From positions 1 to 64,000 of IMG/VR virus record IMGVR_UViG_3300030103_004672: a stretch of 64,000 bases of DNA; one strand, written 5' to 3'. Every line of letters begins with the position of its first letter. The first letter of the stretch is position 1. Source of the stretch: a virus. The translations under genes and the position numbers were made by a program. Below the pieces are notes generated by a model. That model ran no database searches and was not told the origin of the DNA. It was given only the letters and a program-made list of their open reading frames with translations. Of the stretch, positions 11,521 to 55,211 are shown piece after piece.

Positions 11521-11865
11521 ATGAAAACATTTAAAGATTTTAAACAAGAAGGAACAGATAATCTCTTCGAATCAGCTATGGCAGAGCAACTAACACCAGA
11601 GCAAGAAAAAGCTATTGACGAAGTAGTTGATAGAATCTTAGAGGGTGATGCTAACGGTGAAGATTTAGAAAAGATAATGCAAGAAATAGTTAATGAAGGT
11701 ATTATTGGATCTATATTTGGTGGCCTTACTGGTTTTGCACTTGGAAAAACAATTGGGAAAACAATTGCTAAAGTGCTTGGGATTAATAAGGGGATTTTAT
11801 ATGATATGCTAACAAGTAGACTAGTGGGTGCGGCCTTAGGTTCTGCTATTGGCAAAAAGATATAA
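11521..11865 (+). CDS. Small protein with capsid-targeting-like N-terminus and glycine-zipper helices
   Basis: The protein has 114 residues and begins MKTFKDFKQE, the K-x-F-x-x-F-x-x-E pattern seen on T4 internal head proteins such as IPIII (MKTYQEFIAE). Residues 25-60 are acidic and helical. The C-terminal half has two Gly-rich hydrophobic helices (IGSIFGGLTGFALGKTIGK and LVGAALGSAIGKKI) with GxxxG spacing, as in glycine-zipper membrane-active proteins. It is therefore a candidate packaged protein that could insert into a membrane after DNA ejection. That function is inference. A TATATAA element lies just upstream at 11511-11517. Confidence 0.6.
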   Translation: MKTFKDFKQEGTDNLFESAMAEQLTPEQEKAIDEVVDRILEGDANGEDLEKIMQEIVNEGIIGSIFGGLTGFALGKTIGKTIAKVLGINKGILYDMLTSRLVGAALGSAIGKKI

Positions 11866-13928: not shown

Positions 13929-14986
13929 TGTCAGCTGATTCTAAAATACGAGCCCGGGTAATCGAAAAGGTTACCCGGGTTATTCGTATGAATCATACTG
14001 AATATGAAAAGAAGCAAGCAGTACAAGGTCGGGATAGACTAAATTTTGCTTGTCCATATTGTGGAGATTCTACGAATGATCCTCGAAAGAAAAGAGGAAA
14101 CATATATTGGGCAGATCTATTTTTTCATTGTTACAACTGCAATCAGCATAAGAATGTAGATGAGTTTCTTCGTGATTTCAACGAAAGTCTTGAAGGTGAA
14201 GAACGTGTTACCCTTATAAATTCAATAAAAGAATCAAGAAAGAAGTTTAGTAAGATTGAAAACCTAGACTTTTATCTCTTTGAAAAGCTAGATGAACTAG
14301 CACTTGATTTTAACATAATATCAGATTTCTTTGGTTGCAATCCTATAAACGAAGTCTCTGCTAGGGCATATCCTTACCTAAAATCAAGATTGTTGCATCA
14401 CAAGCTAAACAATTTTGGATATAACCCTAGAACACAAGACTTGTATGTTTTTAATTTCAACAGATCTGGTAAAATTATAGGATTTCAAGTAAGGTCTTTA
14501 TCAGGAAGGGGCCCTAAATATAGGACATATAACATAGAAAAGATTTACGACAGAATCTCTAAGCCACTAAATCTAGATGAAGAAGAGATAGCTGCACTAA
14601 ATAAAATATCTATGATATTTGGCTCAATGGTTTCTAACTTTTCAGATACTCTAACTATCTTTGAAGGACCGATTGATGCAATGTTTATGCGCAACTCCAT
14701 AGGTCTGACTGGTGTTAAGAAAAAGGTCATGGATTTTGGAGAGATACAGAATGTAAGATATTTCTTTGATAGTGATATTGAAGGAAAGCGAAAGATGCTT
14801 GAAAAACTCAGAGAAGGAAAGACTGTCTTCATGTGGAAAAAGTTCTTTGATGATCATAGAATCAATCCAAAGATTGTTAAGGATTTAAACGATTTAGTCA
14901 AATACGAATATAAGTATAAGAAAGGTTGTCTCAAAAACTTAGACGACTATTTTACAAACAACTCATTAGATGCAATATACATATGA
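13928..14986 (+). CDS. 61: DNA primase gp61
   Basis: This DnaG-type primase makes RNA primers for lagging-strand synthesis together with the gp41 helicase. The N-terminal zinc ribbon is visible as CPYC near residue 43 and CYNC near residue 68. A TOPRIM domain follows, with FEGPIDAMFM (catalytic Glu) and YFFDSDIEG (Asp pair), ending in KDLNDLVK. At 352 residues it is close to T4 gp61 (342). It overlaps the gp32 stop, and its own stop overlaps the next ATG (ATGA, 14983-14986). A strong hairpin lies within its first codons (13953-13979). Confidence 0.9.
   Translation: MSADSKIRARVIEKVTRVIRMNHTEYEKKQAVQGRDRLNFACPYCGDSTNDPRKKRGNIYWADLFFHCYNCNQHKNVDEFLRDFNESLEGEERVTLINSIKESRKKFSKIENLDFYLFEKLDELALDFNIISDFFGCNPINEVSARAYPYLKSRLLHHKLNNFGYNPRTQDLYVFNFNRSGKIIGFQVRSLSGRGPKYRTYNIEKIYDRISKPLNLDEEEIAALNKISMIFGSMVSNFSDTLTIFEGPIDAMFMRNSIGLTGVKKKVMDFGEIQNVRYFFDSDIEGKRKMLEKLREGKTVFMWKKFFDDHRINPKIVKDLNDLVKYEYKYKKGCLKNLDDYFTNNSLDAIYI
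13953..13979 (+). promoter_or_regulatory. Strong hairpin at the gp32/primase junction
   Basis: CCCGGGTAA (13953-13961) and TTACCCGGG (13971-13979) form a perfect 9-base-pair stem with a 9-base loop, unusually GC-rich for this genome. It lies inside the first 17 codons of the primase gene and is not followed by a T-run, so it is not a classical terminator. It may reduce primase expression or protect or process the gp32 mRNA. Confidence 0.55.
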
Positions 14987-15189
14987 AAAAGTTTAGTGAA
15001 TTTTTGTTAGAGACTAACGATTTTTATAATGAGTTTGAAGCCAGATCTAAAAGGCTTAAATTGTTTGTAGACTTCAAACCATCTGAATACGATCACTCAA
15101 AAAGGAGTATTGAAATAGAGAAACCAAAAAAGAAATTTAAGCCAACAACCTCAACATTTACAAAAAAATCTGATAAAAGCATATTTTAA
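14983..15189 (+). CDS. Small protein with capsid-targeting-like N-terminus
   Basis: The start at 14983 overlaps the primase stop (ATGA) and is preferred to an upstream start inside the primase gene. The 68-residue product begins MKKFSEFLLETNDF, matching the K-x-F-x-x-F-x-x-E pattern. The rest is basic and Lys-rich (EKPKKKFKPTTSTFTKKSDK) and ends in KSIF. It could be a small DNA-binding internal head protein released at the Glu by the prohead protease. I do not recognise the body of the protein. Confidence 0.6.
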   Translation: MKKFSEFLLETNDFYNEFEARSKRLKLFVDFKPSEYDHSKRSIEIEKPKKKFKPTTSTFTKKSDKSIF

Positions 15190-17189: not shown

Positions 17190-18410
17190 ATGCCACGTAT
17201 TAAGAAATTTTCAGAACTTCTAACAGAGTCTAGATCTACAGACGTACAGGAAGTTGTTAAAAAATTAGGATTTAGTTCTTTAGAAGAAATCAAAAAAGAA
17301 AGAGCAATGCTAGCCAAGCTAGAAGCTTTGCTAAAATCTATTCCCCAGTCAAATCAAATAGCAGAGGATGATGCCGATGAAATTGAAGACGAAGTTGTAA
17401 AAATGGGTACTCCAAAATCTTTAGAAGGTGCTGATGGAGAAAAAGAAGAAGATGGTGAAACAGGTGTCGAGGGTGACGTTGAAGAGGCAGAGGAATCAGA
17501 AGAGGTTGAAGCTGAAGTATCAGTAGAAGAACCTGCTGAGGAAGAAGTTGAAGAAGCTGCCGAAGAAGATGAGGCTGAAGATGAGGCTTCTAAAATTGCC
17601 GATGAGGTTGTAGCTAAAGGCGAACCTAAAGAACAACCAGAAGGTGAGGGTGATGAAGTAGTAACTAAAGATCAGGAAATCGAGACAGAAGTCGAAGAAG
17701 AACCTGCTGATGCTGAAGCTGGCACTGATGTTCCTAAGAAAAGAATTAAGTCGTTTGCAGAATTCGTGGCTGAAAAAGAGGTTACAGTTAATAAGAATGT
17801 AAACTATCACGACGACGAAGAAGAGAAGGAAGATTACGGAATGCCAGTGGCTGCATCCGCTGATCCAATGTCTGAAGGAATGTATGAGGATGATGACGAT
17901 GATGACGATGATGATCACGACGATGATGATCATGAAGATCGCGAAGAGCATGAGGGCAAAGAGGATGAGAAGAAAGGTGAAGAACTAGAAGACGAAGGAG
18001 ATGAGGATGTTGATTCAGAAGATGATGCCGAAAAAGAAGTTCATTACAAAGACGCTGTAAAGGATGACGAAAAGGAAAAAGAAGATCTTGAAAAGGATAT
18101 AGAATACGACGAAGAAGAGGAGGACGATGCTAAAGAGGATGAAGAAAAGAAAAATGAATCTCTAACAGTATCATTTGCTAAATTTGTCGCTGAAGCTTAT
18201 GAAGCAGAAGAAACTGAAGAAGAAGAAGTTGAAGAGGAAGAAGTTGAAGAGGAAGATGCTAAAAACGAAAAATATGACAGAGTCGTATTAGGTGGAAACA
18301 AAGGAGACAAATCTAAAACTCATTCAGGTGAAGATTACGAGGACGAGGATGACAAGAAAGAAGAAGGCGAAGAGCCTTTAGCAGATGAGTCTGAAGTAAA
18401 TGAAAAATAA
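17190..18410 (+). CDS. Highly acidic protein with three capsid-targeting-like peptides
   Basis: About half of the 406 residues are Glu or Asp, including a run of nine Asp near residue 234. Three copies of an F-x-x-F/L-x-x-E peptide occur: KKFSELLTES at the N-terminus, RIKSFAEFVAEKE at 185-197 and VSFAKFVAEAYE at 327-338. T4 internal proteins carry such a peptide at the N-terminus, and the gp21 protease cuts after the Glu; T4 also packages acidic internal peptides cut from scaffold gp22. This may be a precursor of several acidic head peptides or an accessory scaffold. That role is inferred. An ATG after a late-type promoter opens the gene. Confidence 0.65.
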   Translation: MPRIKKFSELLTESRSTDVQEVVKKLGFSSLEEIKKERAMLAKLEALLKSIPQSNQIAEDDADEIEDEVVKMGTPKSLEGADGEKEEDGETGVEGDVEEAEESEEVEAEVSVEEPAEEEVEEAAEEDEAEDEASKIADEVVAKGEPKEQPEGEGDEVVTKDQEIETEVEEEPADAEAGTDVPKKRIKSFAEFVAEKEVTVNKNVNYHDDEEEKEDYGMPVAASADPMSEGMYEDDDDDDDDDHDDDDHEDREEHEGKEDEKKGEELEDEGDEDVDSEDDAEKEVHYKDAVKDDEKEKEDLEKDIEYDEEEEDDAKEDEEKKNESLTVSFAKFVAEAYEAEETEEEEVEEEEVEEEDAKNEKYDRVVLGGNKGDKSKTHSGEDYEDEDDKKEEGEEPLADESEVNEK

Positions 18411-18419
18411 AATCTAAAA

Positions 18420-19064
18420 ATGAAAAACCTCAAATCATTTGGTCAATTTTTAAACGAGCAAACATCAACTGAAGGTTTGTCAGAAAGAGCAAAGCCAGTT
18501 AAGAAAAGAGACTGGGACAAAGCTGATGATGAACAAAGAGAAGAATGGCTGCTTCAGGCATTTTCTGATCCAGATGATGCTACGGAATTTATTGAAGTAG
18601 ATTGGAAAGACCTGCCACCGACCGCAACTCAGAATATGGTGATGGAAGGCACTAGAGCCCAGGTTGGATTAATCGATCCTACTGGCCGAATCAGAAGTGT
18701 ATATTTGCATAGTGACGGTGGCCCGGATTCTGCTGGTAAAGTTTTGAAAAACAACTATTCTGATACTACTAAAGTCATCAAGTTATTAGATTTAGGAACT
18801 ATGGGGATTTCAAGCCTTGCACCTTCTATGAGGGGCGGTAAAGGTCATGATTTTTATAATAGAAAGCCTGGAGAGACTGTTTTTTATGGAAGAGACCGGG
18901 GCGAGACAGGAAGACCTATGATGACTCTAGGAAACGAAAAAAAGATGAAACAATTCATGGGCGATGCTCTAGGTGACTCAGATTTTCTTTATCTTTGGGA
19001 TTCTAGAGACGGGCAATGGTTAGTTGCAGATGCAAGAACCAAAAAATTACAACCACTTAAATAA
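18420..19064 (+). CDS. Tagged protein of an uncharacterised phage/bacterial family
   Basis: The 214-residue protein begins MKNLKSFGQFLNEQ, the capsid-targeting-like peptide, followed by a linker of about 60 residues. The body contains GRIRSVYLHSDGGPDSAGKVL, KVIKLLDLGTMGISSL, ETVFYGRDRGETG and FLYLWDSRDGQW. This order resembles a widespread unnamed family of small phage and plasmid proteins with motifs like IYCHWDGYP, LGDLSSL and AYGRDRGE (from memory, not searched); its function is unknown to me. The extra N-terminal peptide would direct this copy into the head. Confidence 0.6.
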   Translation: MKNLKSFGQFLNEQTSTEGLSERAKPVKKRDWDKADDEQREEWLLQAFSDPDDATEFIEVDWKDLPPTATQNMVMEGTRAQVGLIDPTGRIRSVYLHSDGGPDSAGKVLKNNYSDTTKVIKLLDLGTMGISSLAPSMRGGKGHDFYNRKPGETVFYGRDRGETGRPMMTLGNEKKMKQFMGDALGDSDFLYLWDSRDGQWLVADARTKKLQPLK

Positions 19065-19073
19065 TTTATAAAA

Positions 19074-19292
19074 ATGGCAAGACTATTAGGATTTAACGAT
19101 TTTCTTAATGAAAATGAGAAAATAGAGTCAGAAGCTGATTTTAAAGCATATGCTGAAGAAGTTTTAAAGGCAGCACATCCTGATGATTACGATCAGGAAA
19201 TTGCTGATAAAACAATTGCAGATTTGACACAAAAATACAATGGCGATTACGGTGCAATGATCGGAGCACTTACAAGTGGCCTAGGTAAGTAA
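19074..19292 (+). CDS. Small protein with capsid-targeting-like N-terminus
   Basis: The protein has 72 residues and starts MARLLGFNDFLNENEK, a variant of the tag peptide. The remainder is acidic and helical (DFKAYAEEVLKAAHPDDYDQ) with no recognisable motif. It lies between two other tagged genes with 9- and 5-base gaps, so it is probably co-expressed with them and co-packaged as a small internal head protein. That role is inferred from the peptide and position. Confidence 0.6.
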   Translation: MARLLGFNDFLNENEKIESEADFKAYAEEVLKAAHPDDYDQEIADKTIADLTQKYNGDYGAMIGALTSGLGK

Positions 19293-19297
19293 TACTT

Positions 19298-20569
19298 ATG
19301 AAATACATCCAATTATTTGAAAATTGGCTGGCCTCAAAAAGCCAGCCTTTTTTGTTTGAGGGCGGAGCAGCTGGGCATATGATGCATCCGTTTGACGACA
19401 AGGAATTGACATTTGGCGATTTTAAAAACATGATAGACTATGGTCTACAGGGTCGTCTTGACTTTGAAGAAGAGCCGACAGAAAAAACAGATGGCCAAAA
19501 CGTTTTTGCTACAATCCAAGATGGCAAAGTAAAATTTGCTAGAAATAAGGGAGATCTAAAAAGACCGATGTCTTTAGGTCAATTTACTCAAAAATTTGCA
19601 AACCATCCATCAGAGCAAGTTAGAGACACGTTTACATTTGCCGCAAACGATTTAGCAAGCATGTTAACAAGATTGCCTAAAGATGTGCAAGATAAAGTTT
19701 TTAACAACGGTAAGGATTTTATGAATATGGAGTTAATATATTCACTAAATCCAAATGTTATTAATTACGATAAGGACGTAATAGAATTTCACGGCATTAA
19801 GAAGACTGATGGAAATGGAAATATAATTGGTGAAGATACTAAGGCAGCTAGTGAAATAGCACAAATACTAAAAAGACTAGAAGCCAATGTAGGTAAAACA
19901 TTTTCTGTGATTCCACCAACTAGAATTAAGTTGATGAAAGATGTAAATTATGCAGCTAACAAAGCTGACTTGGTAAACAGAGTTGAATCATTAAGAAAAA
20001 AATATAACCTAAAAGACACAGATCCTGTTTCTAAATACCATGAGCAATGGTGGATGGATCTAATAAATAAAGACTTTCCAGATTTAGACGATGATGTTAA
20101 ATTAGGTTTAATGCAAAGGTGGGCATATGGTGACAAGAAATCTTTGGACATGAGATCCCTGAAATCTAGGGTATCTCCTGTAGACTTTGAAGCAATTAAA
20201 AATTTAGATAAAACTGATTTGCGAAGAAAGCAAAAAGAAAACATCGGCCCGTTTGAAGATATTTTTCTAAACCTAGGTGCTCGAATAATCTCTAATGCTG
20301 AAGATTTCTTAACAGCGAATCCAACTGAAGAAGCAAAAAGGCTCAGATCATCTATTAGTGCTGCCGCTAAAAATCTCAGAAAGGGTGGCAGTGAGCAGCA
20401 AATTGCAAGATTAGAAGATGAGCTAGCTAGGTTAGAAAAGTTAGGAGGCATAGAAATGGTTTATCCTACAGAAGGAATTGTTTTTAAATACAAAGGTAAA
20501 ACATATAAGCTTACTGGAAGCTTTGCGGCTATAAACCAATTATTAGGAATACTAAGATACGGAAGGTAA
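19298..20569 (+). CDS. RNA/DNA ligase-family nucleotidyltransferase with tag-like N-terminus
   Basis: The 423-residue protein contains ligase-superfamily motifs: motif I as EKTDGQN with the putative AMP-accepting Lys63, a following strand VKFARNKGDL, FMNMELIYS near residue 145 (motif III-like), and a C-terminal motif IV/V pair EGIVFKYKGK and YKLTGSF near residues 392-407. Such enzymes seal RNA or DNA ends through a covalent AMP-lysine intermediate. It opens with MKYIQLFENWLASK, a looser version of the tag peptide. A terminator-like hairpin overlaps codons 10-18. T4 has three ligases (gp30, Rnl1, Rnl2); which this matches cannot be decided by eye. Confidence 0.7.
   Translation: MKYIQLFENWLASKSQPFLFEGGAAGHMMHPFDDKELTFGDFKNMIDYGLQGRLDFEEEPTEKTDGQNVFATIQDGKVKFARNKGDLKRPMSLGQFTQKFANHPSEQVRDTFTFAANDLASMLTRLPKDVQDKVFNNGKDFMNMELIYSLNPNVINYDKDVIEFHGIKKTDGNGNIIGEDTKAASEIAQILKRLEANVGKTFSVIPPTRIKLMKDVNYAANKADLVNRVESLRKKYNLKDTDPVSKYHEQWWMDLINKDFPDLDDDVKLGLMQRWAYGDKKSLDMRSLKSRVSPVDFEAIKNLDKTDLRRKQKENIGPFEDIFLNLGARIISNAEDFLTANPTEEAKRLRSSISAAAKNLRKGGSEQQIARLEDELARLEKLGGIEMVYPTEGIVFKYKGKTYKLTGSFAAINQLLGILRYGR
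19326..19353 (+). terminator. Terminator-like hairpin inside the 5' end of the ligase gene
   Basis: GGCTGGC (19326-19332) and GCCAGCC (19341-19347) form a perfect 7-base-pair stem with an 8-base loop, followed by six T residues (19348-19353). This is a canonical intrinsic terminator, but it lies within codons 10-19 of the ligase-like gene. It may end transcripts of the tagged genes upstream and attenuate the ligase genes downstream. Confidence 0.6.
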
Positions 20570-20581
20570 ATAAATAAAGTA

Positions 20582-23410
20582 ATGAAAGAATTAAATCAAG
20601 TTTATAAGGATAAAGGTCGTGAATTTGTTAATAATCTTTTAGATGATTATCTTATCGTTACCGAAAAATTGTCAGGATCTAGTTTCTCTTTTGAAAGAGA
20701 TGGTTTTGACTTAGTATTCTATAAGGGCAATGGTGCAAGACGAATCAATCAGGTCGATAGAACTATGATGATGTACTACGAAGGCCCTATTAATTATTTA
20801 GAAAGGGCAACTGCTGATATCCTTGTAACATTACCTGAAAACTGGATTTTCTGCTTTCAGTATTTTGTGCATAATGAACCAGGAGTTGTAAAATACGACG
20901 AACTACCAAAAAATAATTTAGTACTAACACATATTTTAGTCAAGGGGCTTGGTGGCAAAATTGCTAAAGTTATAGATGACCCTAGAGTAATAAACGATTG
21001 GGCTAATGTTTTAGATGTAACTGCAATTAGGCCATTTTTCATGGGGAGACTAAGTGAAGAACAAAAGAAAAAGGTAAGAGAGTTTGTAGCTTTGCCAGTA
21101 GATGATCAGGAGGCTGCGTTTGGAACTGATTCATTTGTACAATACTTATTAAGCATTTTAGACAACGATGTAAATAGAACTACATTACAGACAAGTCTAA
21201 GAAAACCAATTGATTCATTAGTATTCAAATTCGTTAAGCCAGGAGGAGAGACTGCGTTCTCTGCAAAGGTTGTAGATCCATACACTAGGCACATAATGAA
21301 GAGCAAAGCTCCTGTTGATCTAAAAAGAATGCCAAAGGATATAAATGAAATATTATTATTAGATTTCTTAGCGTTTGTAGAAGAGCGAGGCATAAAGTCT
21401 GCAGATGTAATGAGCTCAGAGCCTGATAAGAGATATGTTGAGCTTATCTCCTCATTATTCAATGATTATGTAAAAAATCGTGGTGAATCTATTAAGGATA
21501 TGGATTTTGAGAAAGCTGATTTTGCGAAAGGTGATGAATTTAACTTAAACATTGATGCAATAAACAATGAAGACACTAAAAAATTAGTTAACTCAAATGA
21601 TGCATATGGGTCTCTGTACAAGATACTGCTAGGATCACTTAGGAAACATCGAAAGAAGCCAGGAAGTGTAATGACTCCAACTGTTGTTAAAGATTTTAAT
21701 AGCATGGTTGATAAGATCCAAAATATAACAGGTAAGGTTAAACAGGATGATACAATTAAAACTTTCAGCGATTATTTAGGTTTAAAGGCAATAGATGAGT
21801 CTGACAAAAAGCCGATTGATGAAATGATCATGGAGGAGTATATTAGTTCTTATGATGAATTTATAACAGAAGCGTTGAGAGTTCCTCATAAGGAACAGGG
21901 CAAAAAGCCAGTGAATGTATTTGTTGGCAGGTTCCAGCCTTTTACAAATGGCCACGTCAAGGTTTTTGAAGCTCTCCATAGAAAGAATGGATTGCCTGTA
22001 GTTGTAATGACTGTCAGAAGCGGTAAGGTTGATGATAGAAGACCTTTTTCTGAACAAGACCAGCAGGCATTATTCGCTAAACTCCAAAGACAGTATCCAT
22101 TTCTAGAAGCAATGCATATTCTGCCAAATGCTGCTATCGATTCAGTATTTGCATCAGTTAGACCAGCATACGAGCCAGTCTTATGGGGATATGGCACAGA
22201 TAGAAAAGCATCATATGAAGGCATGATCAATAAGCCTACATACAGAGAACAGCTTGGAGTAACAGATGAGTTTAAAGGTTATGAAATACCAAGATCAGGG
22301 CAGGCTGTATCTGCAACACAGGTAAGAGATGCGATAAAACGAGATGATGAGAAAATGTACAGAAAGCTAACACCAAAAAGCTTACATGATTCATACCAAT
22401 ACTTAAAAACTATATTAACACCAGTTTTAGCAGAAGAAGCTGAAGAAGATTTTGATGCTGAAGTTAGAGTTATAAACGAGGGCACTGAGAGAAATTATAT
22501 GGTTTTAGCCCAATCTTCAAGAAAGGAAGATAAAGATAAACTATATAATATGATCAACAAGGATCTTTTTGGTGGTAAGGCTCCATTCCAGAGAATCTCT
22601 CTTAAAAACTTTAGCAATGGAACAATATCTCAGGTTGATAGGCTTCTAAAGTCAAATCCGTCTGCAGCAACTAAATTGTGCAATCTAGGGGCAGATGTAA
22701 CTGGAATTGGGCGTGGTGAAATTATGCTTGCATACATAGTAGAAAACTGCGGAATCGGTGGAGGCTCACAAGATATTGATTTAACTCTTTACAACCAAAG
22801 AGGAGGGGTTCTTGACCAGTCGGAGCTAAAAGAGGCACGCCTAGGAAAGGACGGATATTTCTCTGACTGGAGAACTGGTGCAAAGCATAGGCCATATGTA
22901 AACGCTGCAAAAGACGATTTACAGGCATTGTACAAAGCACTAAAGGATGTTCTACCTGAACTAGATCCTAAAACGCCGGTTGGTGCGGACATTCAATCAA
23001 AAATGGCAAGAGGCGAAGGTGCTGCATTTATAAAGCTTGTTAGAGACATGGACCCTGTGGAAGTTGCTGCCCCGCTGAGATTCGAAGTACAAGTCACACC
23101 TGACGGTGAGCTTGTAATTTCTAAGGAAGGTGGAGACACTTTGGGAGACTTATCAAACAAGGCAACCCTAAACAGTTTAAAACAGTTATTATCCGGTCAA
23201 AACAAACAGAGCTATAAGTCTTTTAAAGATATTGAGGCTGAGCTCGCAGCTGGCTTTGGATCTATAATTGAAAAATTTGTTTTTGTCCAAACTGACAGTG
23301 CAAAGAGATTTAAAGGCGTATACTTTAAAAACAACTTATCGTCTGATCCTAATGAAACAAAGATCGTTAGTTTAACAGGTGGCACGGTTAAGGTTAAAGT
23401 TAAAGCATAA
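20582..23410 (+). CDS. Ligase-like / NMN adenylyltransferase-like / PD-(D/E)XK-like fusion protein
   Basis: The 942-residue protein has three parts. Residues 1-300 resemble an RNA ligase: motif I EKLSG with Lys29, and late motifs DSLVFKFVKPG and SAKVVDPYTRH. Residues 440-610 are a nucleotidylyltransferase domain with GRFQPFTNGH (449-458), the NadM/NadR-type signature, and VSATQVRDAI. Residues 640-942 contain GRGE (710-713), a D-I-D at 731-733 and E-L-K (748-750), the order expected for a PD-(D/E)XK nuclease core. Between parts one and two, YDEFITEA (424-431) resembles a prohead-protease cleavage site. A role in NAD or RNA repair on infection is possible but inferred. Confidence 0.7.
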   Translation: MKELNQVYKDKGREFVNNLLDDYLIVTEKLSGSSFSFERDGFDLVFYKGNGARRINQVDRTMMMYYEGPINYLERATADILVTLPENWIFCFQYFVHNEPGVVKYDELPKNNLVLTHILVKGLGGKIAKVIDDPRVINDWANVLDVTAIRPFFMGRLSEEQKKKVREFVALPVDDQEAAFGTDSFVQYLLSILDNDVNRTTLQTSLRKPIDSLVFKFVKPGGETAFSAKVVDPYTRHIMKSKAPVDLKRMPKDINEILLLDFLAFVEERGIKSADVMSSEPDKRYVELISSLFNDYVKNRGESIKDMDFEKADFAKGDEFNLNIDAINNEDTKKLVNSNDAYGSLYKILLGSLRKHRKKPGSVMTPTVVKDFNSMVDKIQNITGKVKQDDTIKTFSDYLGLKAIDESDKKPIDEMIMEEYISSYDEFITEALRVPHKEQGKKPVNVFVGRFQPFTNGHVKVFEALHRKNGLPVVVMTVRSGKVDDRRPFSEQDQQALFAKLQRQYPFLEAMHILPNAAIDSVFASVRPAYEPVLWGYGTDRKASYEGMINKPTYREQLGVTDEFKGYEIPRSGQAVSATQVRDAIKRDDEKMYRKLTPKSLHDSYQYLKTILTPVLAEEAEEDFDAEVRVINEGTERNYMVLAQSSRKEDKDKLYNMINKDLFGGKAPFQRISLKNFSNGTISQVDRLLKSNPSAATKLCNLGADVTGIGRGEIMLAYIVENCGIGGGSQDIDLTLYNQRGGVLDQSELKEARLGKDGYFSDWRTGAKHRPYVNAAKDDLQALYKALKDVLPELDPKTPVGADIQSKMARGEGAAFIKLVRDMDPVEVAAPLRFEVQVTPDGELVISKEGGDTLGDLSNKATLNSLKQLLSGQNKQSYKSFKDIEAELAAGFGSIIEKFVFVQTDSAKRFKGVYFKNNLSSDPNETKIVSLTGGTVKVKVKA

Positions 23411-23422
23411 AAAAATATTACC

Positions 23423-23737
23423 ATGAAGCATATTCTAGAAATGAATGATTTTTTGAATGAAAAAAGAGTAGTTGTTAAGAGAAGATATACTGAAAAACAT
23501 CCCGCAAGGCAAGTTTCTACTGCGGCTAGAATCAGAAATACTGTTTTAGAAGCAATTGCAGACGGCGTAATCACAGAAGAAGAGCTAAAAACTATTTTAT
23601 CACAGTTAGAAGCAAACTCACGATGGCTGAGTAGGAATACTAATTTATTTAATATAGATGAAGACGAAACAGGTGTGAAGAGATTTACATTATCACCTTA
23701 TGGACACCGTGTTAGAACTAGAACAATAGAGTCGTAA
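23423..23737 (+). CDS. Small basic protein with capsid-targeting-like N-terminus
   Basis: The 104-residue protein begins MKHILEMNDFLNEKR, a variant of the tag peptide. The following segment is basic (VVVKRRYTEKHPARQ). Residues 35-75 are helical (VLEAIADGVITEEELKTILSQL), and the C-terminus is again basic (GHRVRTRT). I do not recognise a family. It follows the ligase/NMNAT fusion by 12 bases and precedes the next gene by one base. Confidence 0.6.
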   Translation: MKHILEMNDFLNEKRVVVKRRYTEKHPARQVSTAARIRNTVLEAIADGVITEEELKTILSQLEANSRWLSRNTNLFNIDEDETGVKRFTLSPYGHRVRTRTIES

Positions 23738-23738
23738 A

Positions 23739-24140
23739 ATGCCAGCACTTTCTAAAACACAGCAAAGACTGATGGGAACTGCTTATGCAGTCAAGAATGG
23801 AGATCTAGACCTTAAGTCTGTTGATGCAGAGTACAGGGACAAAATCAAGGATCTTGTTGATGGCATGACGTTGAAGCAACTAAAAGATTTTGCAGAAACC
23901 AAACATGAAGGATTACCAGAAGTAAAAGAAACTGTAGCTCATTTAAACCCTAACATGAATGTCCAAAGCATGGGTGAACCTTCTGTACCAGGTAACCCAG
24001 GGCTAATGAATGACTTTGTGTCTCAACAAACTGGAAGTGGCGACCTACTTTCGACAAAAGATGTTAAAAAAGTTAAGAAAAAGAAAAAGAAAAAGAGCTG
24101 GTTAATGACTTTTGAGCAGTTTAACAATAAAAACATATAG
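23739..24140 (+). CDS. DUF3008-like protein sharing a capsid-protein segment
   Basis: The N-terminal 65 residues (MPALSKTQQRLMGTAYAVKNG, ending in FAETKHEGLPE) look like the DUF3008 family of small phage proteins of unknown function. Residues 68-102 then match residues 56-90 of the major capsid protein at 52381 without gaps: both contain HLNPNMN and end TGSGD, with 20 of 35 positions identical by eye. The tail is a Lys-rich run followed by SWLMTFEQFNNKNI, resembling a C-terminal version of the tag peptide. It may bind a capsid partner, mimic the capsid N-arm or be packaged. Function unknown. Confidence 0.65.
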   Translation: MPALSKTQQRLMGTAYAVKNGDLDLKSVDAEYRDKIKDLVDGMTLKQLKDFAETKHEGLPEVKETVAHLNPNMNVQSMGEPSVPGNPGLMNDFVSQQTGSGDLLSTKDVKKVKKKKKKKSWLMTFEQFNNKNI

Positions 24141-24142
24141 AG

Positions 24143-25264
24143 ATGGCAATTAAATCTAAATTCGAGATTAAAAACTTATTTCAAACTGGCGGTGTATTAA
24201 CATCATCAAGCATGAACGAGTTAATTGATGCTAGTTATAATCCTACTATAATTGCCGGTGATAATATAACAATTTCAACAATAAACACACCCGGTGGGTC
24301 AGAGATTACTATAAATTCAACTGGCGGTGGCGGCGGTGGAGGTCAAATGACCCCTGCTGAAGTTAGAGCAGCAGTTGAAGCTGCTGATAATTCAAATGTG
24401 TTTACAGATGCAAACCTCACAAAGCTTAATGGTATTGAAGCATTAGCGGATGTGACAGATGTAGCAAATGTTACAACAGCATTAAATAGCATCTCGGTTA
24501 CTGAGCTAAATGATGTAACTGCTGCAGGGTCGGGATCAATAATCACAACAGGCGAGAGGACAAAATTATCGGGTATTGACACTGGCGCAAATAACTATTC
24601 GTTCGATATAAGCGTAGACAGTGGAACCGCAGAGACTATAGATAATAACGATACTGTAGATTTCATTTCTGGAAACGGTATAACAATAAGTAACTCGGGA
24701 GCAGATGTTACTGTAAAAACCGTGTCAGACACTCATCAGAGGTATACGGCTGGAAACGAAGACTTGGTATTTCTAACTCACCAAGACTTTAATATGGTAA
24801 GTATAACAACAGCAGCAGGTAGTGGATTTCCTTCTACTTATGATGACGGCCCGGTGCAACGAAATAATACTGATATTAGTTCACTACTTTTTTCTGGAGG
24901 TGAAGAAGATGTTTTGTATGCTAGTTACGTGATACCGGCAGGTTTTAATGTAACTAGAGTTGGTGTATTTGGAAACAACCCTGAGAACAGTGCTACATTT
25001 ATGGTAAAAACCTCAAACGTTATAGGTTCAGGTGCGGATAATGCATTTGAAGCAAATAAGCAAGTTTTAACATCAACCCCTACTACATTTGCGGCATTCA
25101 AGGCAGCAGCGTACCAAACTGGTGCGGAAGAGTCTACAGTGCCATCTGCTCCATTTCCAACCAACCCGACTGAAACTACTATCAAAGGCAACTATATAAA
25201 TATTCAGGTCTATAATCCTGGCAGAATTTTTGGAGCTGTTATTCACTTAACTAGAATTACATAG
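24143..25264 (+). CDS. Fibre-like or head-decoration structural protein
   Basis: The 373-residue protein has an N-terminal IKSKFEIKNLFQTGG, a Gly-run hinge (GGGGGGG near residue 65), repeat-like fibre phrases (FTDANLTKLNGIEALADVTD and TTGERTKLSGIDTGANNY) typical of phage tail fibres, and a beta-rich C-terminal 150 residues. No enzyme motif is seen. It sits downstream of the tagged cassette rather than in the tail cluster, so it could be a head fibre as easily as a tail fibre. Confidence 0.55.
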   Translation: MAIKSKFEIKNLFQTGGVLTSSSMNELIDASYNPTIIAGDNITISTINTPGGSEITINSTGGGGGGGQMTPAEVRAAVEAADNSNVFTDANLTKLNGIEALADVTDVANVTTALNSISVTELNDVTAAGSGSIITTGERTKLSGIDTGANNYSFDISVDSGTAETIDNNDTVDFISGNGITISNSGADVTVKTVSDTHQRYTAGNEDLVFLTHQDFNMVSITTAAGSGFPSTYDDGPVQRNNTDISSLLFSGGEEDVLYASYVIPAGFNVTRVGVFGNNPENSATFMVKTSNVIGSGADNAFEANKQVLTSTPTTFAAFKAAAYQTGAEESTVPSAPFPTNPTETTIKGNYINIQVYNPGRIFGAVIHLTRIT

Positions 25265-25267
25265 TAA

Positions 25268-25906
25268 ATGTTAAAATATACTAACGACGAATTAGGTAAG
25301 AGTATCCTGATCGACTCGAATGGTGAACAAGTAATGATGGAATGGGAAAAGCCATACATGGAAGCATGTATTGATTTTCTTGAACCAAAAGGAGATGTTT
25401 TAGAGATAGGATTTGGTATGGGTTATTCTGCTACTCAGATTCAAAAACATACCCCTAAGTCATACACTATTGTAGAGTGTGATCCTGTTGTGATTGAAAA
25501 ATGTAAAGAATGGGCTAAACAATATGATAATGTAACTATCATAGAAGCCCGATGGCAAGAAGTAATTACAACTGATAGATTAGGTAAATATGACGAAGTA
25601 TTCTTTGATGATTTTCCTAACGATATTGAATACAAATCCGAATTAGAGTATTACAACGTAAATACAAGATTCCATCTTTTTATTGACTTCTTACGAATGC
25701 ATCATCTAAAGCCTAACGCCAAAATATCTGGATATCTTTGCAAAGGTGAGAGCATGCAAAAAAACAAATATTGGAAGCATAAGTATATCGATAATAATGC
25801 CTGGGACTACAAAGAGAAAATTATTGATATCGAGGTGAGTAAAATACAAAAGTATCATAATTCTGTAAATAAAGCAGTGATACCTCTCTTAACATACAAA
25901 TTGTAG
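25268..25906 (+). CDS. Class I SAM-dependent methyltransferase (GAMT/RMT2-like)
   Basis: The 212-residue protein has the SAM-binding motif LEIGFGMGYSAT, an acidic motif II region YTIVECDP and a post-motif VFFDDFPND. MMEWEKPYMEACIDFL before motif I resembles guanidinoacetate N-methyltransferase and related RMT2 enzymes (family recall). The substrate in a phage is unknown; it may be a protein side chain or a small guanidino compound. It sits four bases after the fibre-like gene and before dUTPase. Confidence 0.7.
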   Translation: MLKYTNDELGKSILIDSNGEQVMMEWEKPYMEACIDFLEPKGDVLEIGFGMGYSATQIQKHTPKSYTIVECDPVVIEKCKEWAKQYDNVTIIEARWQEVITTDRLGKYDEVFFDDFPNDIEYKSELEYYNVNTRFHLFIDFLRMHHLKPNAKISGYLCKGESMQKNKYWKHKYIDNNAWDYKEKIIDIEVSKIQKYHNSVNKAVIPLLTYKL

Positions 25907-25944
25907 TAAACATTATCGAATGCCAGTGTATAAAAAGTAAAACA

Positions 25945-26409
25945 ATGGCAAATACAGATAATAAATGTGCTAATCTAGAAGTACAAGATCATCACAAACA
26001 TGCCGAAGATACATTTGGTTTAATTTATGACAAACAGCGAGAGCTCCAAGAAAGGTTAGGGTTTGATTTCTCTAATTATACTCTTAAGGACGTTGCTGAT
26101 TTTTGGTTTGTTAACAAACATGCTTTAGATGATGAAATGGGCGAAATGTTCGATGCACTTGGTGGTGTAAATGACGGTATAGCTAATGCAGCATGGAAGT
26201 ATTGGAAGAAAGATAATTCGAAGGCATCAAAAATGTCTGTTAAAGATCTTTCAGAAGCTGACCGCCTTGAGTTATATTATGAATGGATTGACGGTTTGCA
26301 TTTCTACATGAACTTTGCGATTGCACTAGGCATGACAAGCAAAGACATCGTAAATTTATACATGGCAAAGAATGCAGAAAATTTTGACAGACAAGAAAGA
26401 GGTTATTAA
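25945..26409 (+). CDS. 56: Dimeric dUTPase (dUTP diphosphatase, gp56-like)
   Basis: This all-alpha NTP pyrophosphatase converts dUTP to dUMP, keeping uracil out of DNA and supplying dUMP for thymidylate or modified-pyrimidine synthesis. In the 154 residues, the metal-binding motifs are visible as LDDEMGEMFDAL and EWIDGLHFYMNFAIALG, with the C-terminal YMAKNAENFDRQERGY typical of the family. T4 gp56 also acts on dCTP; whether this one does is unknown. It precedes the polymerase gene by three bases. Confidence 0.85.
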   Translation: MANTDNKCANLEVQDHHKHAEDTFGLIYDKQRELQERLGFDFSNYTLKDVADFWFVNKHALDDEMGEMFDALGGVNDGIANAAWKYWKKDNSKASKMSVKDLSEADRLELYYEWIDGLHFYMNFAIALGMTSKDIVNLYMAKNAENFDRQERGY

Positions 26410-26412
26410 TAT

Positions 26413-27816: not shown

Positions 27817-27882
27817 TTTTACCTTTTACTATCATCTTTAACCTGATAGATAAAACTCACAATCAAAAAGAATCACTAATTA

Positions 27883-28884: not shown

Positions 28885-28899
28885 AAAATATATTTAATA

Positions 28900-30684: not shown

Positions 30685-30699
30685 TAATTATATTAATTA

Positions 30700-50543: not shown

Positions 50544-52214
50544 ATGTCTAAAAATTTATTAATCATAGAAAGATCGAGCACCGTACTCAATACGCAGAAG
50601 GAGACGGATGGTTCGGTAATACTCGAAGGAGTCTTTACACAAATAGGAGTAAAGAACAAGAATAACAGAATTTACGAAGAAGAGGAAGTTCTACCTCATA
50701 TTAATGAGCTAAAAGAGAAGGTTGCTAGTAAAAAATTATTAGGCGAACTTGATCATCCAAAGGATTTTGATATTAGCTTATCAAATGTATCTCACGTTAT
50801 CGAGGATCTAAGATATGATGAAAACAAAAAACAAGTTTTAGGTCGAATTAAATTATTGAACACATCTAAAGGTAAAGAAGCAAAGGCGCTAATAGAAGAC
50901 GGTATTCCATTACACATCTCTAGCAGGGCTGCTGGAACTGTAGGTGATGATGGTCGAGTAAAAATTAAAAAATTCTTTACATATGACTTAGTCGCTGATC
51001 CTGGTTTTGAAAACGCAGAATTAGCAAGAGTTAACGAATCATTTGGATTTGATGCAGATGACTCTTTATACATCTATGAAGTTAATGAACAGATAAATAA
51101 ACCAAATAAAAAATCAGAAGAAATGGCTCAAGAACAATATGTAACTGTTGAGGACTTTAACAAGTATACTGAATACTTAAAAAATGAAATTGAGAGAGTA
51201 AAAGAAACAGCTAACGATGATCAGTCTGCTACAATTCAAAAACTAGTTGAGTATTCTGAGCATATCGCTGAGAAAGTAAATCAGGTTACTGATTATGTTG
51301 AGTATGTAGCTGAAAATGTCGATAAGAGCATTTCATATACTGACTACTTAGCAGAAAATATGAACAATATTAAGGAATACACAGATTATTTAGCTGAACA
51401 GTTAGATACAGGTATTCAATATTCTGAGCATGTTGCTGAAAAGACAGATCAGTCTATCGAATATGCTAATTACCTAGGAGAAAGCTTAGAGAAAGGAATT
51501 GCATATAGCGAGTACATTGCTGAGAAACTCGATAAGAGCATTGCCTATTCTGAGTACTTGAAAGAGAATGTCGAAAAGAGCATTACTTATACTGAGTATG
51601 TTGCTGAAGAAGTAAACAACGAATACGGAAAGATTTTAGCTGAAAATGCTAAAGATACAGCTGATGGTAAAATTGTTGTAGAGTCTGACGATTCTTACAA
51701 AGCTAACATTAGTGAAAAACTAACAGCTCTTGTTGAGAAGGCTGAATCTAAGAGCAATCACAACTTGTTCTTCATGAATTTCTTAACTGAAAAGAAAAGA
51801 AATGAGTTCGGTGCATTAAACAATGAAAAGCAAGATAAGATTGTAGAGCAAATGAATTCAAACCGTTGCATGTCTACCATAGACGCTGAGAGAATTTGGG
51901 ATTCTTGCTTTGTTACTGAATCTAATAAATTAGATGTTGTAGATAGCATGCCAGAGAAATACCGCGCAAAATGGGAATCATTGAGTGAAGGTAAGAAAAA
52001 CCAGATTCTAGCCGAGTCACAGTTCAGAAGCTTAGATACTCAATATGCTATCGATAACTTCTGGGCAACTAGAGATCTTCGCGATACTAAAGTTGAGTTA
52101 GAAAAAATCAACGAATCTAAAGTTGCTGGTGAGGATGTAGAAAATCCATATGCAGTAAATGAAGATTTCAAGAATGACTTAGTTAACAGACTAAGATTCA
52201 ACTTAGGAAGATAA
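50544..52214 (+). CDS. 21: Prohead protease gp21 fused to a gp22-like scaffold
   Basis: Residues 1-175 are a prohead protease: LLGELDHPKD carries the catalytic His71, HISSRAAG the serine at 126/127, and ADPGFENAEL matches the family. From residue 194 the protein becomes a helical acidic scaffold: nine 14-residue repeats at 234-359, then a helical C-terminal part with protease-site-like FLTE and ILAE. In T4 protease (gp21) and scaffold (gp22) are separate genes; here one 556-residue frame carries both. An in-frame ATG at 51123 (MAQEQYVTVEDF) could make a scaffold-only product. It is followed by a strong terminator. Confidence 0.85.
   Translation: MSKNLLIIERSSTVLNTQKETDGSVILEGVFTQIGVKNKNNRIYEEEEVLPHINELKEKVASKKLLGELDHPKDFDISLSNVSHVIEDLRYDENKKQVLGRIKLLNTSKGKEAKALIEDGIPLHISSRAAGTVGDDGRVKIKKFFTYDLVADPGFENAELARVNESFGFDADDSLYIYEVNEQINKPNKKSEEMAQEQYVTVEDFNKYTEYLKNEIERVKETANDDQSATIQKLVEYSEHIAEKVNQVTDYVEYVAENVDKSISYTDYLAENMNNIKEYTDYLAEQLDTGIQYSEHVAEKTDQSIEYANYLGESLEKGIAYSEYIAEKLDKSIAYSEYLKENVEKSITYTEYVAEEVNNEYGKILAENAKDTADGKIVVESDDSYKANISEKLTALVEKAESKSNHNLFFMNFLTEKKRNEFGALNNEKQDKIVEQMNSNRCMSTIDAERIWDSCFVTESNKLDVVDSMPEKYRAKWESLSEGKKNQILAESQFRSLDTQYAIDNFWATRDLRDTKVELEKINESKVAGEDVENPYAVNEDFKNDLVNRLRFNLGR
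51243..51620 (+). repeat. Nine tandem 14-residue coding repeats in the scaffold part of gp21
   Basis: Nine in-frame 42-base units encode Y-(S/T)-(E/D)-(Y/H)-(V/I/L)-A-E-x-(V/L)-x-(K/N/Q)-(S/G)-I-type units (for example LVEYSEHIAEKVNQ and SIAYSEYLKENVEK). DNA copies are diverged but protein spacing is exact, with Tyr and Glu every 14 residues, as in a repeated coiled coil that might measure scaffold length. Confidence 0.8.
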
Positions 52215-52380: not shown

Positions 52381-54117
52381 ATGTACGCAAATCGTCTTAT
52401 TAATGAGGCTGAGGTTCAAAAGACTTGGACACCTATCATTTCAGAGGCTACTGGTATCGAGGACAAAAGCAAACTTGCTTGGATGTCTAAGTATTGCCAC
52501 TACCATAACTTGAATGAGAGTGTTTATAACACTGTGCACCTCAACCCTAACATGAACCTTCAAGGTATGAATGCGCCAGCTTTCCCAAATGACCCAACTA
52601 CCTTGAATGCATTCCCAGGCCAAGTAACTGGTTCTGGTGACAAACCTTTCTCTTTGCTTCCACTTGCTATGCAGGTTGCTGCTCAGACTGTAGGTCTTGA
52701 CTTAGTACCTGTTGTGCCAATGCAAGGTCCTATGGGAGTATTAACTTACCTGGACTTCGTATACGGTGGTGGTAGAATTCAAGATGCTGGTGGAAAAGCA
52801 ACTGATTCTGCACCATTGATGATCAAATTCGCTTTTGATAACTTACAAGGTGCTGCTTTAGTAGAAAACGACCTAGTATACGCATCTTCTGCCGCGCTTA
52901 CTACAACTGTTGCTCCTTACGAATTAACATTCATTGGATTATCAAGAATTGATGGTAAATCTATTTTCCGTGTAAGAGGTAACGATGACGCCACTGCAAC
53001 TACTGCTGGTGTTTACCAACAAGGTGAAGTAGGTTATGAGCCTATCTATGATGCAATTGCTAATAACGTAGACTTCTACGATGCTGCTGCCGCACAAGCT
53101 GGTGATGTAAAAGGTACAGTTGACGGAAATGTTGAGTTAGTAAAAGCTTTAGAAGATCATATCCCAGGTTTCTCAGGTTCTGCATTTGAAGCAAACAACC
53201 CAGTTGGATCTGCTCCTACTTTCGGTGTTGAGAATATCGGTGGTGTTGACCCATACCAAAGAGGTGTTGGTGAAGCTACTCCTGATAACAACTTAGGTCT
53301 TTCTTTATTCAACAAGTCAGTTGCTGCTATGACTTACCAAGTTGCAGCTGCTGTTACTCGTGAGCAAGTACAAGATCTTAAGCAATTCGGAATCGATGCA
53401 GTTGCTCAAGTAGAGGCTGTACTTGTTAATGAATTGACTCAGTCAATCAACAAGTTAATCCTTGATCGTATCTTCAAGCTTGGTGTAACTAACGCATTCC
53501 AAGTATCTCAAGTCAATGGAACAGTTCTTTCTGCTCACTTTGACCTAACTGGAGGTGTTGGTACTACAATTGCTCTCGGCCAAGATAACACTGGTACTGC
53601 TCGTTCAGTAACTGTTGATAGTGTTAACGTTGCTGGCGGTGGAGAAACTCAGGGTACTCTACAGCGTAGAATCTTAACTAAGATCTTAGCTGCTACAAAC
53701 CTTATCGCTGTACGTGGACGTCGTGGTCCAGCTACTTTCGCTGTAACTAGCGGAAAGATGGCCACTGCTATCCAAGACGTTGCAGGTTTCGTACCTTACC
53801 CACTATCAAATACAGTTAACCAAGCTGGTGGATCACTCTACCCAATTGGTGCTGTTGCTGGTGTAACTATCTACGTTGATCCAAACCGTGATTTTGATGA
53901 TAACAAGATTGCTGTTGGACGTAAAGGAGATGGAAACTCACCAGGATTGGTATTCATGCCTTACTTAATGGCTGAATCAGTTGAGACAATCGCTGAAGGA
54001 ACTATGGCTCCTAAAATTGCGGTTAAATCACGTTTCGCTCTTGTTGAGGCTGGTTTCCACCCACAAACTATGTACTACACTTTAGACTTCGTGTTGACAG
54101 GTGTTGACTTGATCTAA
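52381..54117 (+). CDS. 23: Major capsid protein gp23
   Basis: The 578-residue protein (T4 gp23 521) is the main shell protein. The start LINEAEVQKTWTPIIS and the N-terminal 50 residues resemble the T4 delta domain; a prohead-protease site may be LNE near residue 50. Family blocks include LVPVVPMQGPMGVLTYLDFVYG, AAVTREQVQDLKQFGIDA, NKLILDRIFKLG, RGRRGPATFAVTSG and VGRKGDGNSPGLVFMPYLMAE. Codon choice is visibly richer in C-ending codons than neighbours, as for a highly expressed gene. Residues 56-90 are shared with the small protein at 23739. It has its own promoter and terminator. Confidence 0.92.
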   Translation: MYANRLINEAEVQKTWTPIISEATGIEDKSKLAWMSKYCHYHNLNESVYNTVHLNPNMNLQGMNAPAFPNDPTTLNAFPGQVTGSGDKPFSLLPLAMQVAAQTVGLDLVPVVPMQGPMGVLTYLDFVYGGGRIQDAGGKATDSAPLMIKFAFDNLQGAALVENDLVYASSAALTTTVAPYELTFIGLSRIDGKSIFRVRGNDDATATTAGVYQQGEVGYEPIYDAIANNVDFYDAAAAQAGDVKGTVDGNVELVKALEDHIPGFSGSAFEANNPVGSAPTFGVENIGGVDPYQRGVGEATPDNNLGLSLFNKSVAAMTYQVAAAVTREQVQDLKQFGIDAVAQVEAVLVNELTQSINKLILDRIFKLGVTNAFQVSQVNGTVLSAHFDLTGGVGTTIALGQDNTGTARSVTVDSVNVAGGGETQGTLQRRILTKILAATNLIAVRGRRGPATFAVTSGKMATAIQDVAGFVPYPLSNTVNQAGGSLYPIGAVAGVTIYVDPNRDFDDNKIAVGRKGDGNSPGLVFMPYLMAESVETIAEGTMAPKIAVKSRFALVEAGFHPQTMYYTLDFVLTGVDLI

Positions 54118-54200: not shown

Positions 54201-55211
54201 ATGATTTTTTCTTACGACACCTTTAATAGAATCAACGAATCTGTAGAAAGAGTTGAAAAAAATGGATTAGTAGAAGAAGGCCTGCTTGCCGCTATTAAAT
54301 TTCCAATTAAATTTACTAAAATTAAAAATAATGCCAAGAAATATCTAAAGGCTAAAATGAAGCACATGTCTGTAGAGGTTGCATTGGCTAAAAAGAAAGC
54401 AAATACCAACTGGGCTGACCTTCCACCAGAAAAGAAAGAAGTGGTAAAATTGGCTGCAGATGCTAAAAAGAGAGCAATTGACCTAGAAATGAAGTCTATT
54501 ACAGACAGGATTGCTAAATTGGCTTCTAGTCCTATGTTACAGGATTATGCAGCTTATAAGAAAGGGGAAGCAGATTTAGAGGCTGCACTAGAGCTCCAAA
54601 AAAATATGGAGAGTGAAGCTGACCAAATATTAATTCAAAAGAGAATTAAAAATCTTCAGACTAAACAGGCTGAAAGAAAGGCTGAACTAGAAACAAAACC
54701 TGATCCGGAAGAAGATAAAGGTGGTAAAAGTGATCAGAAGGCGGACGAAACGCCGTCAAGAGCTGAACAAGATGCTGAGGCTGAAAGGGAAAAGGAGAAG
54801 GCTGCAGAGGATAAAAAGAAACAGGCTTTAGAAGATGCTAAAAATAAGATTGCTGACGCTAAAGCTGCATATGATAAGGTTAAGGATGGTGATGATGAAA
54901 GAGCAAAGTTTGACGCACAGATAACGTTTAAGCAAGCACAGCAGGAGAAAGCAAAGATAGAGGGAAATACCGAACTATACCAAGCACTAGCTAAGGATCA
55001 AGGAGATATCCTAAAGAAAATTGACAATCTAGATAAAAATAAAGATCCCAAGGTAAAAAAGCATGAAGATAAGATTAAGGAATACGAAGAAGCAATTGAT
55101 GTCTTAAAAGACAAGACAGACAAAAAATCAAAAGGAGATCTTCAAATAATACAGTCTGCATTGAAATCCGAAAAAGAAAAATTAGCTAAGGCTAAAGAAG
55201 AATCAAAATAA
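54201..55211 (+). CDS. Charged coiled-coil protein with capsid-targeting-like N-terminus
   Basis: The 336-residue protein begins MIFSYDTFNRINESVERV, a variant of the tag peptide (F-x-x-F-x-x-x-x-E). Residues 25-65 are basic; the rest is a Lys/Glu/Asp/Ala-rich coiled coil to the end (for example AEREKEKAAEDKKKQALEDA). It has no hydrophobic core domain. A late-type promoter 20 bases upstream and the position after gp23 point to an internal head or scaffold-associated protein. I do not recognise the family. Confidence 0.6.
   Translation: MIFSYDTFNRINESVERVEKNGLVEEGLLAAIKFPIKFTKIKNNAKKYLKAKMKHMSVEVALAKKKANTNWADLPPEKKEVVKLAADAKKRAIDLEMKSITDRIAKLASSPMLQDYAAYKKGEADLEAALELQKNMESEADQILIQKRIKNLQTKQAERKAELETKPDPEEDKGGKSDQKADETPSRAEQDAEAEREKEKAAEDKKKQALEDAKNKIADAKAAYDKVKDGDDERAKFDAQITFKQAQQEKAKIEGNTELYQALAKDQGDILKKIDNLDKNKDPKVKKHEDKIKEYEEAIDVLKDKTDKKSKGDLQIIQSALKSEKEKLAKAKEESK

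Follow-up and report, generated by a model that had tools for sequence, protein, structure and literature searches.

In bacteriophage T4, a capsid-targeting sequence of ca. 10-13 residues (MK..[FY]xx[FY][IL]xE) precedes protein bodies that are otherwise diverse and operates together with a protease of the gp21 family (PMC3012670, PMC9026906). The first ten residues of T4 IPIII (MKTYQEFIAE) are enough for targeting; residues 4 and 7 govern targeting, residues 8 and 10 govern cutting, and an Asp at position 10 allows targeting while inhibiting cutting (PMC9026906). Phages phiKZ and SPN3US also have big sets of head proteins (inner-body and ejection proteins), use a related protease and eject such proteins (PMC5694885, PMC13282480), but their propeptides are mostly long (often >100 residues), end in AxE or SxE cut sites and show no short universal tag (PMC5694885). 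Polyvalent phage proteins are likewise head-packaged effectors meant for action on entry (PMC5512222, PMC9503650); unlike the proteins described here, they are multi-domain, are recognised by their domains and carry no tag.

Here, we analyzed a 64-kb stretch of DNA (the window), which is a part of an 88,677-base viral record. The nearest relative in the annotated collection is LR756500.1, an uncultured phage whose major capsid protein (MCP) is 56% identical; since LR756500.1 spans 462 kb, our record is probably a piece of a larger genome. Along with a portal gene, the window encodes an S77 prohead protease, a scaffold and a T4-type MCP (Table 1), the set that accompanies a capsid-targeting sequence of the T4 type. 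A megablast search of the cassette of tagged genes against phages gave no match, and a scan with the single protein 18420 retrieved only a near-identical contig. Genes were called as simple open reading frames (ORFs) and are designated by their first nucleotide.

The tag found in the window shares the T4 traits listed above, and its conserved positions are the same four as in T4 IPIII; the spacing between Met and the tag is usually three residues longer than in T4. While T4 has a handful of such proteins (IPI, IPII, IPIII and Alt), the tagged set here comprises 6-34 proteins per genome or fragment. Also unlike T4, the cargo is located in a conserved island and is rich in enzymes, and the protease is fused to a scaffold built from tandem repeats that resemble the tag. 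We regard the system as a variant of T4 capsid targeting that has been greatly enlarged. A preliminary description of this DNA knew of no described cargo set of this kind. As a statement about kind this is too strong, for the internal proteins of T-even phages already form such a set on a small scale (PMC3012670, PMC9026906). For a set this large, and for the island arrangement, the open-access literature that we searched offered no counterpart.

The tag in the window genes

The preliminary description placed the peptide at the starts of eight genes of the window, and the ORF starts that it gave are right. Genes 17190 (KKFSELLTE), 18420 (KSFGQFLNE), 19074 (LGFNDFLNE) and 23423 indeed open with canonical peptides of the [FY]xx[FL][LIV]xE class; in 23423 (MNDFLNE) a Met replaces the first aromatic residue. 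The tags of 14983 and 11521 are backed by orthologues, which open with MIKNYSNFVTE and MIKKYNEFVTE in the former case and with MKTFLDYIAE and MKTFFEYLEE in the latter. Two of the eight genes are exceptions. The candidate tag of 54201 (FSYDTFNRINES) scores -0.2 bits in our profile, is not supported and should be dropped. The 19298 copy (LFENWLAS) is degenerate and has no Glu, yet 40 of 45 unfused 19298 orthologues, chosen without regard to the motif and counted by eye, keep a canonical tag; in one subclade of the family, Asp or Ser replaces the Glu. Altogether, the Glu of the [LI]xE processing site is present in six of the eight genes. The internal copies described earlier were also recovered: 17190 has two, IKSFAEFVAE and a further one at F329, and 20582 has one at residue 421; in 20582, the tag is internal only.

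Several carriers are new. Genes 78730 and 82118, outside the window in the same record, are tagged; 78730 codes for an ATP-grasp protein with tagged orthologues in five phages. Gene 23739 bears a C-terminal version of the tag. A region similar to 19074 is found at the C-termini of longer proteins of the related records G014 and G016, and an acidic tagged protein resembling 17190 is encoded in G014 at position 110120.

Table 1. Features of the window that bear on the tag, its candidate carriers and head assembly
Feature	Position	Strand	Details
114-aa protein, tag MKTFKDFKQE	11521..11865	+	Glycine-zipper-like C-terminus; Lys in place of aliphatic residue; tag kept in orthologues retrieved by body
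68-aa basic protein, tag MKKFSEFLLE	14983..15189	+	Matches pattern with T4-type spacing; orthologues
406-aa very acidic protein, tag RIKKFSELLTE	17190..18410	+	42% D+E, pI 4.1; two internal tag copies
214-aa protein (phrog_1987), tag LKSFGQFLNE	18420..19064	+	
72-aa protein, tag LLGFNDFLNE	19074..19292	+	Opens conserved island core
423-aa protein, predicted RNA-ligase fold	19298..20569	+	Degenerate N-terminal tag; conserved LxE-GG site, residues 19-23
942-aa protein, predicted RNA-ligase-fold domain (~1-385)	20582..23410	+	Internal tag; HIGH-type cytidylyl/adenylyltransferase (Pfam match 446-505); C-terminal domain
Internal tag ISSYDEFITE of 20582	21842..21871	+	Directly 5' of cytidylyltransferase domain; 17.1 bits, second in genome
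104-aa basic protein, tag ILEMNDFLNE	23423..23737	+	Island core; best profile score of the genome; tagged orthologue
133-aa DUF3008 protein	23739..24140	+	Capsid-arm mimic, poly-Lys linker, tag-like C-terminus; closes island core
MCP N-arm copy (HLNPNMNVQSMG...GSGD) in DUF3008 protein	23898..24044	+	BLASTP against own MCP E=1e-11
S77 (gp21-type) prohead protease-scaffold fusion	50544..52214	+	PF03420 E=2e-15
Nine tandem 14-residue scaffold repeats, Yxx[YH][LIV]xE	51243..51617	+	Tag signature; spacing exactly 14
T4-type MCP	52381..54117	+	PF07068 E=1.6e-31; N-terminus MYANRLINE-AEV, several [LI]xE sites
Coiled-coil protein 3' of MCP, tag not supported	54201..55211	+	Profile score -0.2 bits; one homologue MKELVNFEHFRIIKEAE

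Enrichment of the tag at protein starts

The tag is defined by sequence, and its counts vary with the threshold. Because a loose regular expression applied to the window only gave weak statistics, a profile from another genome was used instead. Since circularity was to be avoided, the position profile was built from 22 N-termini of LR756500 alone, and every protein start in the window genome (n = 91) was scored with it. The top six starts were 23423 (18.4 bits), 82118, 19074, 78730, 18420 and 17190 (8.6 bits), the seventh reaching 4.6 bits. At least 8 bits were obtained for 6 of 91 starts compared with 5 of 563 internal methionines of the window genome (Fisher p = 0.0016); four of the five internal matches come from 20582 (twice), a scaffold repeat and the MCP, and without them p = 4e-5.

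A motif search across related phage genomes found the tag enriched at starts in many of them. In LR756500, about 34 of 692 starts, compared with none of 1812 internal methionines, score at least 10 bits (p = 6e-20). At the level of genes, the counts are 26/156 in G009 (with 0/574 for internal methionines), 22/303 in G014, 11/326 in G008, 9/166 in G016 and 6/174 in G010. When the DNA was searched with MKx[ILVMF]xx[FY]xx[FY][LIVMF]xE, 19-20 matches were found in LR756500 and its contig, 21 in G009 (126 kb), 18 in G014 and 14 in G008; the reversed pattern had no match across 26 records. An unbiased set came from loci retrieved solely through similarity to 19298-family bodies, and there the motif is present at 225 of 1221 starts versus 173 of 6906 internal methionines (p = 2e-87). 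Among 106 tagged island proteins, a biased set chosen by motif, the first aromatic position is F or Y in 105, and the position three residues further on is F or Y in all 106. Judged by sequence, the 13-residue tag is shared by this phage and many uncultured relatives and is carried by dozens of unrelated proteins.

As a positive control, the motif scan of T4 found ipII, ipIII and 61.1 and missed ipI and Alt; since these two escaped it, the scan is conservative. The profile probably erred in one case, a tagged protein with a topoisomerase match (G008, position 136472). The main tag pattern was not found in PTm1, pT24, PAU, MaF61, Lak-B5 and S-PM2, and the trait is therefore not general among MCP relatives; PTm1, pT24 and S-PM2 are T4-like yet lack the pattern. 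A cultured phage, Chryseobacterium phage MA9V-1, has three tags of T4 spacing, MK[NT]FxxF[IV]NE (MA9V1_146, 150 and 207), its MCP propeptide ends with WSEFINE-AAP, and its scaffold is rich in F[IVA]NE sites. A C-terminal NADDFG tag that occurs genome-wide was rejected as a part of the general system: it is limited to LR756500 and the near-identical contig.

The putative cargo island and its predicted ligase-fold proteins

We compared 50 distinct loci that showed at least two of five landmarks, namely, a UvsW-type helicase, 19298, 20582, 23423 and 23739; relatives of 19298 occur on ca. 593 contigs in all. The order of the landmarks is the same in 50/50 loci. The number of tagged inserts among them varies from none in G016 to four in G014 and ca. 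18 in G009. The window phage has a compact island, with 17190, 18420 and 19074 between the helicase and 19298. The cassette of the window is the constant part of an otherwise variable cargo island, to which individual lineages add tagged cargo of their own. The tagged cargo of LR756500 includes a PNK3P phosphatase (E=2.4e-21), a metallopeptidase with a VWA domain, LRR proteins and a possible GNAT protein.

The earlier assignment of tagged proteins to the ligase family was borne out by structure prediction, according to which both 19298 and 20582 have RNA-ligase folds. Their best structural matches are T4 Rnl1 and Rnl2, respectively; the T4 ligases are untagged, and the window proteins lack a detectable Pfam or PDB sequence match. 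In 19298, E62-K63-x-D65-G66, E392-G393 and K404 are invariant in 40 sequences; the protein thus has the Lys-containing motif I (KxDG), the EG of motif IV and the Lys of motif V by which the RNA ligase superfamily is recognised. A Foldseek search with its model ranked Rnl1 first (E=2.5e-3, prob 0.96), a weak match, and a sequence search against PDB gave nothing convincing. A second site, [LIV]xE before GG, is present in 54/54 listed N-termini of the 19298 family, fused forms included. In the predicted model, this stretch is disordered, and the fold starts after it; conservation of the GG may have a structural reason, as the conserved domain begins at the same GG.

Residues 1-385 of 20582 match Rnl2 with E=3.7e-7 and prob 1.0 (model pLDDT 75), which places them within the nucleotidyltransferase fold as predicted. 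The catalytic Lys of motif I, kept in 19298, is not conserved in the 20582 family (EKLSG in the window; ENLDG, ENIQG and EDIQG in homologues), and because of this no enzyme activity is claimed for 20582. In G009, the cytidylyltransferase (13855) is free-standing and tagged, which is why the internal tag of 20582 is best read either as left over from a fusion or as a tag that works from an internal position. A single protein combines a cytidylyltransferase with a 19298-like domain in Mel-JY01 and LR756508. Speculatively, a role in RNA repair on host entry would fit these proteins.

The DUF3008 protein 23739 at the end of the core has a counterpart in LR756500, where the match between the DUF3008 protein and the MCP arm has E=1e-9; in the G016 counterpart, the C-terminal tag is explicit (MKYIYSFKSFLNERLEK). 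T4 61.1 is similar: besides a tag (MKTFKEFIKE), it has a Lys-rich tail and a stretch copied from the N-terminus of mature gp23 (E=6e-9). The order of these parts differs from that in 23739, and 61.1 is a 54-aa protein with the tag at its N-terminus and without DUF3008. The common architecture suggests a conserved linker that would join cargo or core to the inner face of the shell.

Scaffold repeats and the proposed route into the head

The scaffold repeats share the signature of the tag, as in KEYTDYLAE, SISYTDYLAE and IAYSEYIAE. The window scaffold contains ten motif matches against a mean of 0.26 in shuffled sequences, and counts of Yxx[YH][LIV]xE exceed those in 500 shuffles in 5/5 phages (p<=0.002). 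The repeats have Tyr and His where the tag favours Phe, and only one repeat of the window phage scores >10 bits in the tag profile. The T4-type MCP and the S77 protease are both found at threshold in all larger tag-rich records except two: G014 has only the protease, and G009 has neither. Four shorter fragments that lack one or both were not counted against the association.

These data suggest that the tag corresponds to one scaffold repeat with a built-in cleavage site, i.e., that it is a capsid-targeting sequence mimicking a single 14-residue unit of the scaffold in the phage's own prohead. A protein bearing it, mostly at the N-terminus and at times internally or at the C-terminus, would join the scaffold core during assembly. 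While destroying the scaffold, the S77 protease would cut after the Glu of [LIV]xE, and the released cargo would already lie in the head when DNA fills it. The cargo would most likely be ejected with the DNA and act early against host responses, and the RNA-ligase-fold and nucleotidyltransferase members of the set hint at RNA repair. The sequences themselves show the tag with its enrichment and sharp boundaries, its likeness to the scaffold, the protease and the island; from these we infer the head location, cutting, ejection and function of the tagged proteins. Of these, packaging into the head appears well supported.

The tag appears to work at the protein level, as a bounded module. The 115 tagged proteins fall into 88 body clusters, 74 of which are singletons. 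In an alignment of 74 tagged proteins, only M1, F10 and E13 are near-invariant; since these proteins were selected by the profile, the alignment demonstrates unrelated bodies rather than the tag. DNA similarity of tagged genes is at background 5' of the start and again past codon 13, with G008 paralogues as the exception. Within the tag, the third codon position is the most variable, and synonymous codons are mixed (TTT/TTC, GAA/GAG). A signal in DNA or RNA, such as a translation start context, or recent duplication could be imagined as the source of the shared start, given the AT-rich DNA and some paralogues (the LRR family of LR756500 and the G008 repeats). We reject such an origin on the codon and boundary data, the unrelated bodies and the existence of internal and C-terminal copies also speak against it, and we consider it extremely improbable. 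A chance low-complexity pattern deserves even less credence: enrichment is modest when the strict pattern is applied inside the window alone (4/91, p = 0.016), but the ranking by an independent profile and the enrichment across many genomes refute chance at the significance given above.

It is also conceivable that the tagged proteins are prohead core or scaffold parts that are consumed in assembly and stay in the head or are lost from it. Gene 17190, with its acidic composition and three tag copies, resembles a core protein and may be one rather than cargo, 23739 links a copy of the capsid arm with a tag, and gp21 also cuts T4 core proteins (PMC9026906). As a general explanation this is unlikely, since bodies differ between phages, as the singleton clusters show, and enzymes are frequent among them (PNK3P phosphatase, metallopeptidase with VWA, ATP-grasp, PAP2 phosphatase, GNAT). 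N-terminal peptides can be used by any sorting system, and the tag could thus direct proteins elsewhere (for example, to a phage nucleus, a membrane or the site of replication) or mark them for degradation. This we regard as very unlikely: the tag matches both the proven targeting peptide of T4 and the scaffold repeat, a gp21-type site stands at its end, the T4-type protease and MCP co-occur with it, and the replication proteins of the window are untagged.

We consider the capsid-targeting explanation as a whole, with scaffold mimicry, S77 cutting, the cargo island and likely ejection, highly probable. The large packaged cargo set, ligase-family proteins included, proposed in the preliminary description is partly supported, as a capsid-targeting-like tag is present on many unrelated proteins and an S77 protease is encoded in the same genome; the details concerning 54201, 19298, 20582 and 17190 are corrected as described above.

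A broader reading is tentative and, in our estimate, falls just short of probable. It holds that a large, mostly uncultured group of T4-like huge phages uses a general head address code, whereby any protein with a peptide resembling the scaffold repeat is loaded and trimmed. The island between the UvsW-type helicase and the DUF3008/capsid-arm protein would then be a site of cargo exchange with up to ca. 18 tagged genes. Each phage would deliver tens of proteins, including an RNA-repair kit (the ligase-fold proteins, the nucleotidyltransferase and the PNK-type 3' phosphatase of LR756500) acting before phage gene expression.

If the tag is indeed a packing label, the proteins that hundreds of uncultured phages inject would be readable from sequence, and what a phage brings into the cell would become a question testable gene by gene. 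This is of value given how little information there is on the injected toolkit of such phages. The match between the tag and the scaffold repeat would provide a simple, testable reason for why the T4 targeting peptide works, and islands of fast-changing tagged genes would be a natural hunting ground for new anti-defence proteins.

Tagged proteins in the relatives and in the full record

Among the proteins carrying the capsid-targeting-like peptide (the tag) in LR756500, the uncultured 462-kb relative, one is a 3′ phosphatase of the polynucleotide-kinase type (PNK3P, E=2.4e-21), which could partner the ligase-fold protein that is probably packaged. A C-terminal ending, NADDFG(F/L)xDN, is common to 11 or 12 tagged LR756500 proteins (L009, L007, L006 and L013), many of which contain leucine-rich repeats; it was not found in the other records searched. 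Two tagged proteins of G016, another tag-rich phage record, appear ADP-ribosyltransferase-like by eye (YHATYNALLPEI, YHFTSFPGL), and neither matched a Pfam family.

Coordinates of the features
Record	Positions	Feature
LR756500	317088-317720	PNK3P phosphatase, tagged
LR756500	13446-14282	example of tagged protein with NADDFG(F/L)xDN ending
G016	104466; 105797	ADP-ribosyltransferase-like proteins, tagged
Full-length record (G000)	78730-79680	ATP-grasp protein, tagged; outside window
Full-length record (G000)	82118-82399	small Cys-containing protein, tagged; outside window
Window	50544-52214	prohead protease + scaffold
Window	23739-24140	DUF3008 protein
T4 (L087)	18966-19130	61.1
LR756508 (L016)	18903-31025	capsid-region proteins sharing a start peptide

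Probable head proteins and a different start peptide

The prohead protease and scaffold of the window phage form a single ORF, as they are likewise annotated in Tenacibaculum phage PTm1. The DUF3008 protein bears a C-terminal tag and a copy of its own phage's capsid-protein N-arm, which is paralleled by T4 61.1, where the gp23 cleavage region is copied. In LR756508, a different start peptide (MKLTERKLRNLVKEVLKES, MKISEQRVRNIIRKELKS) is common to capsid-region proteins; it may direct proteins to the head as another type of address.
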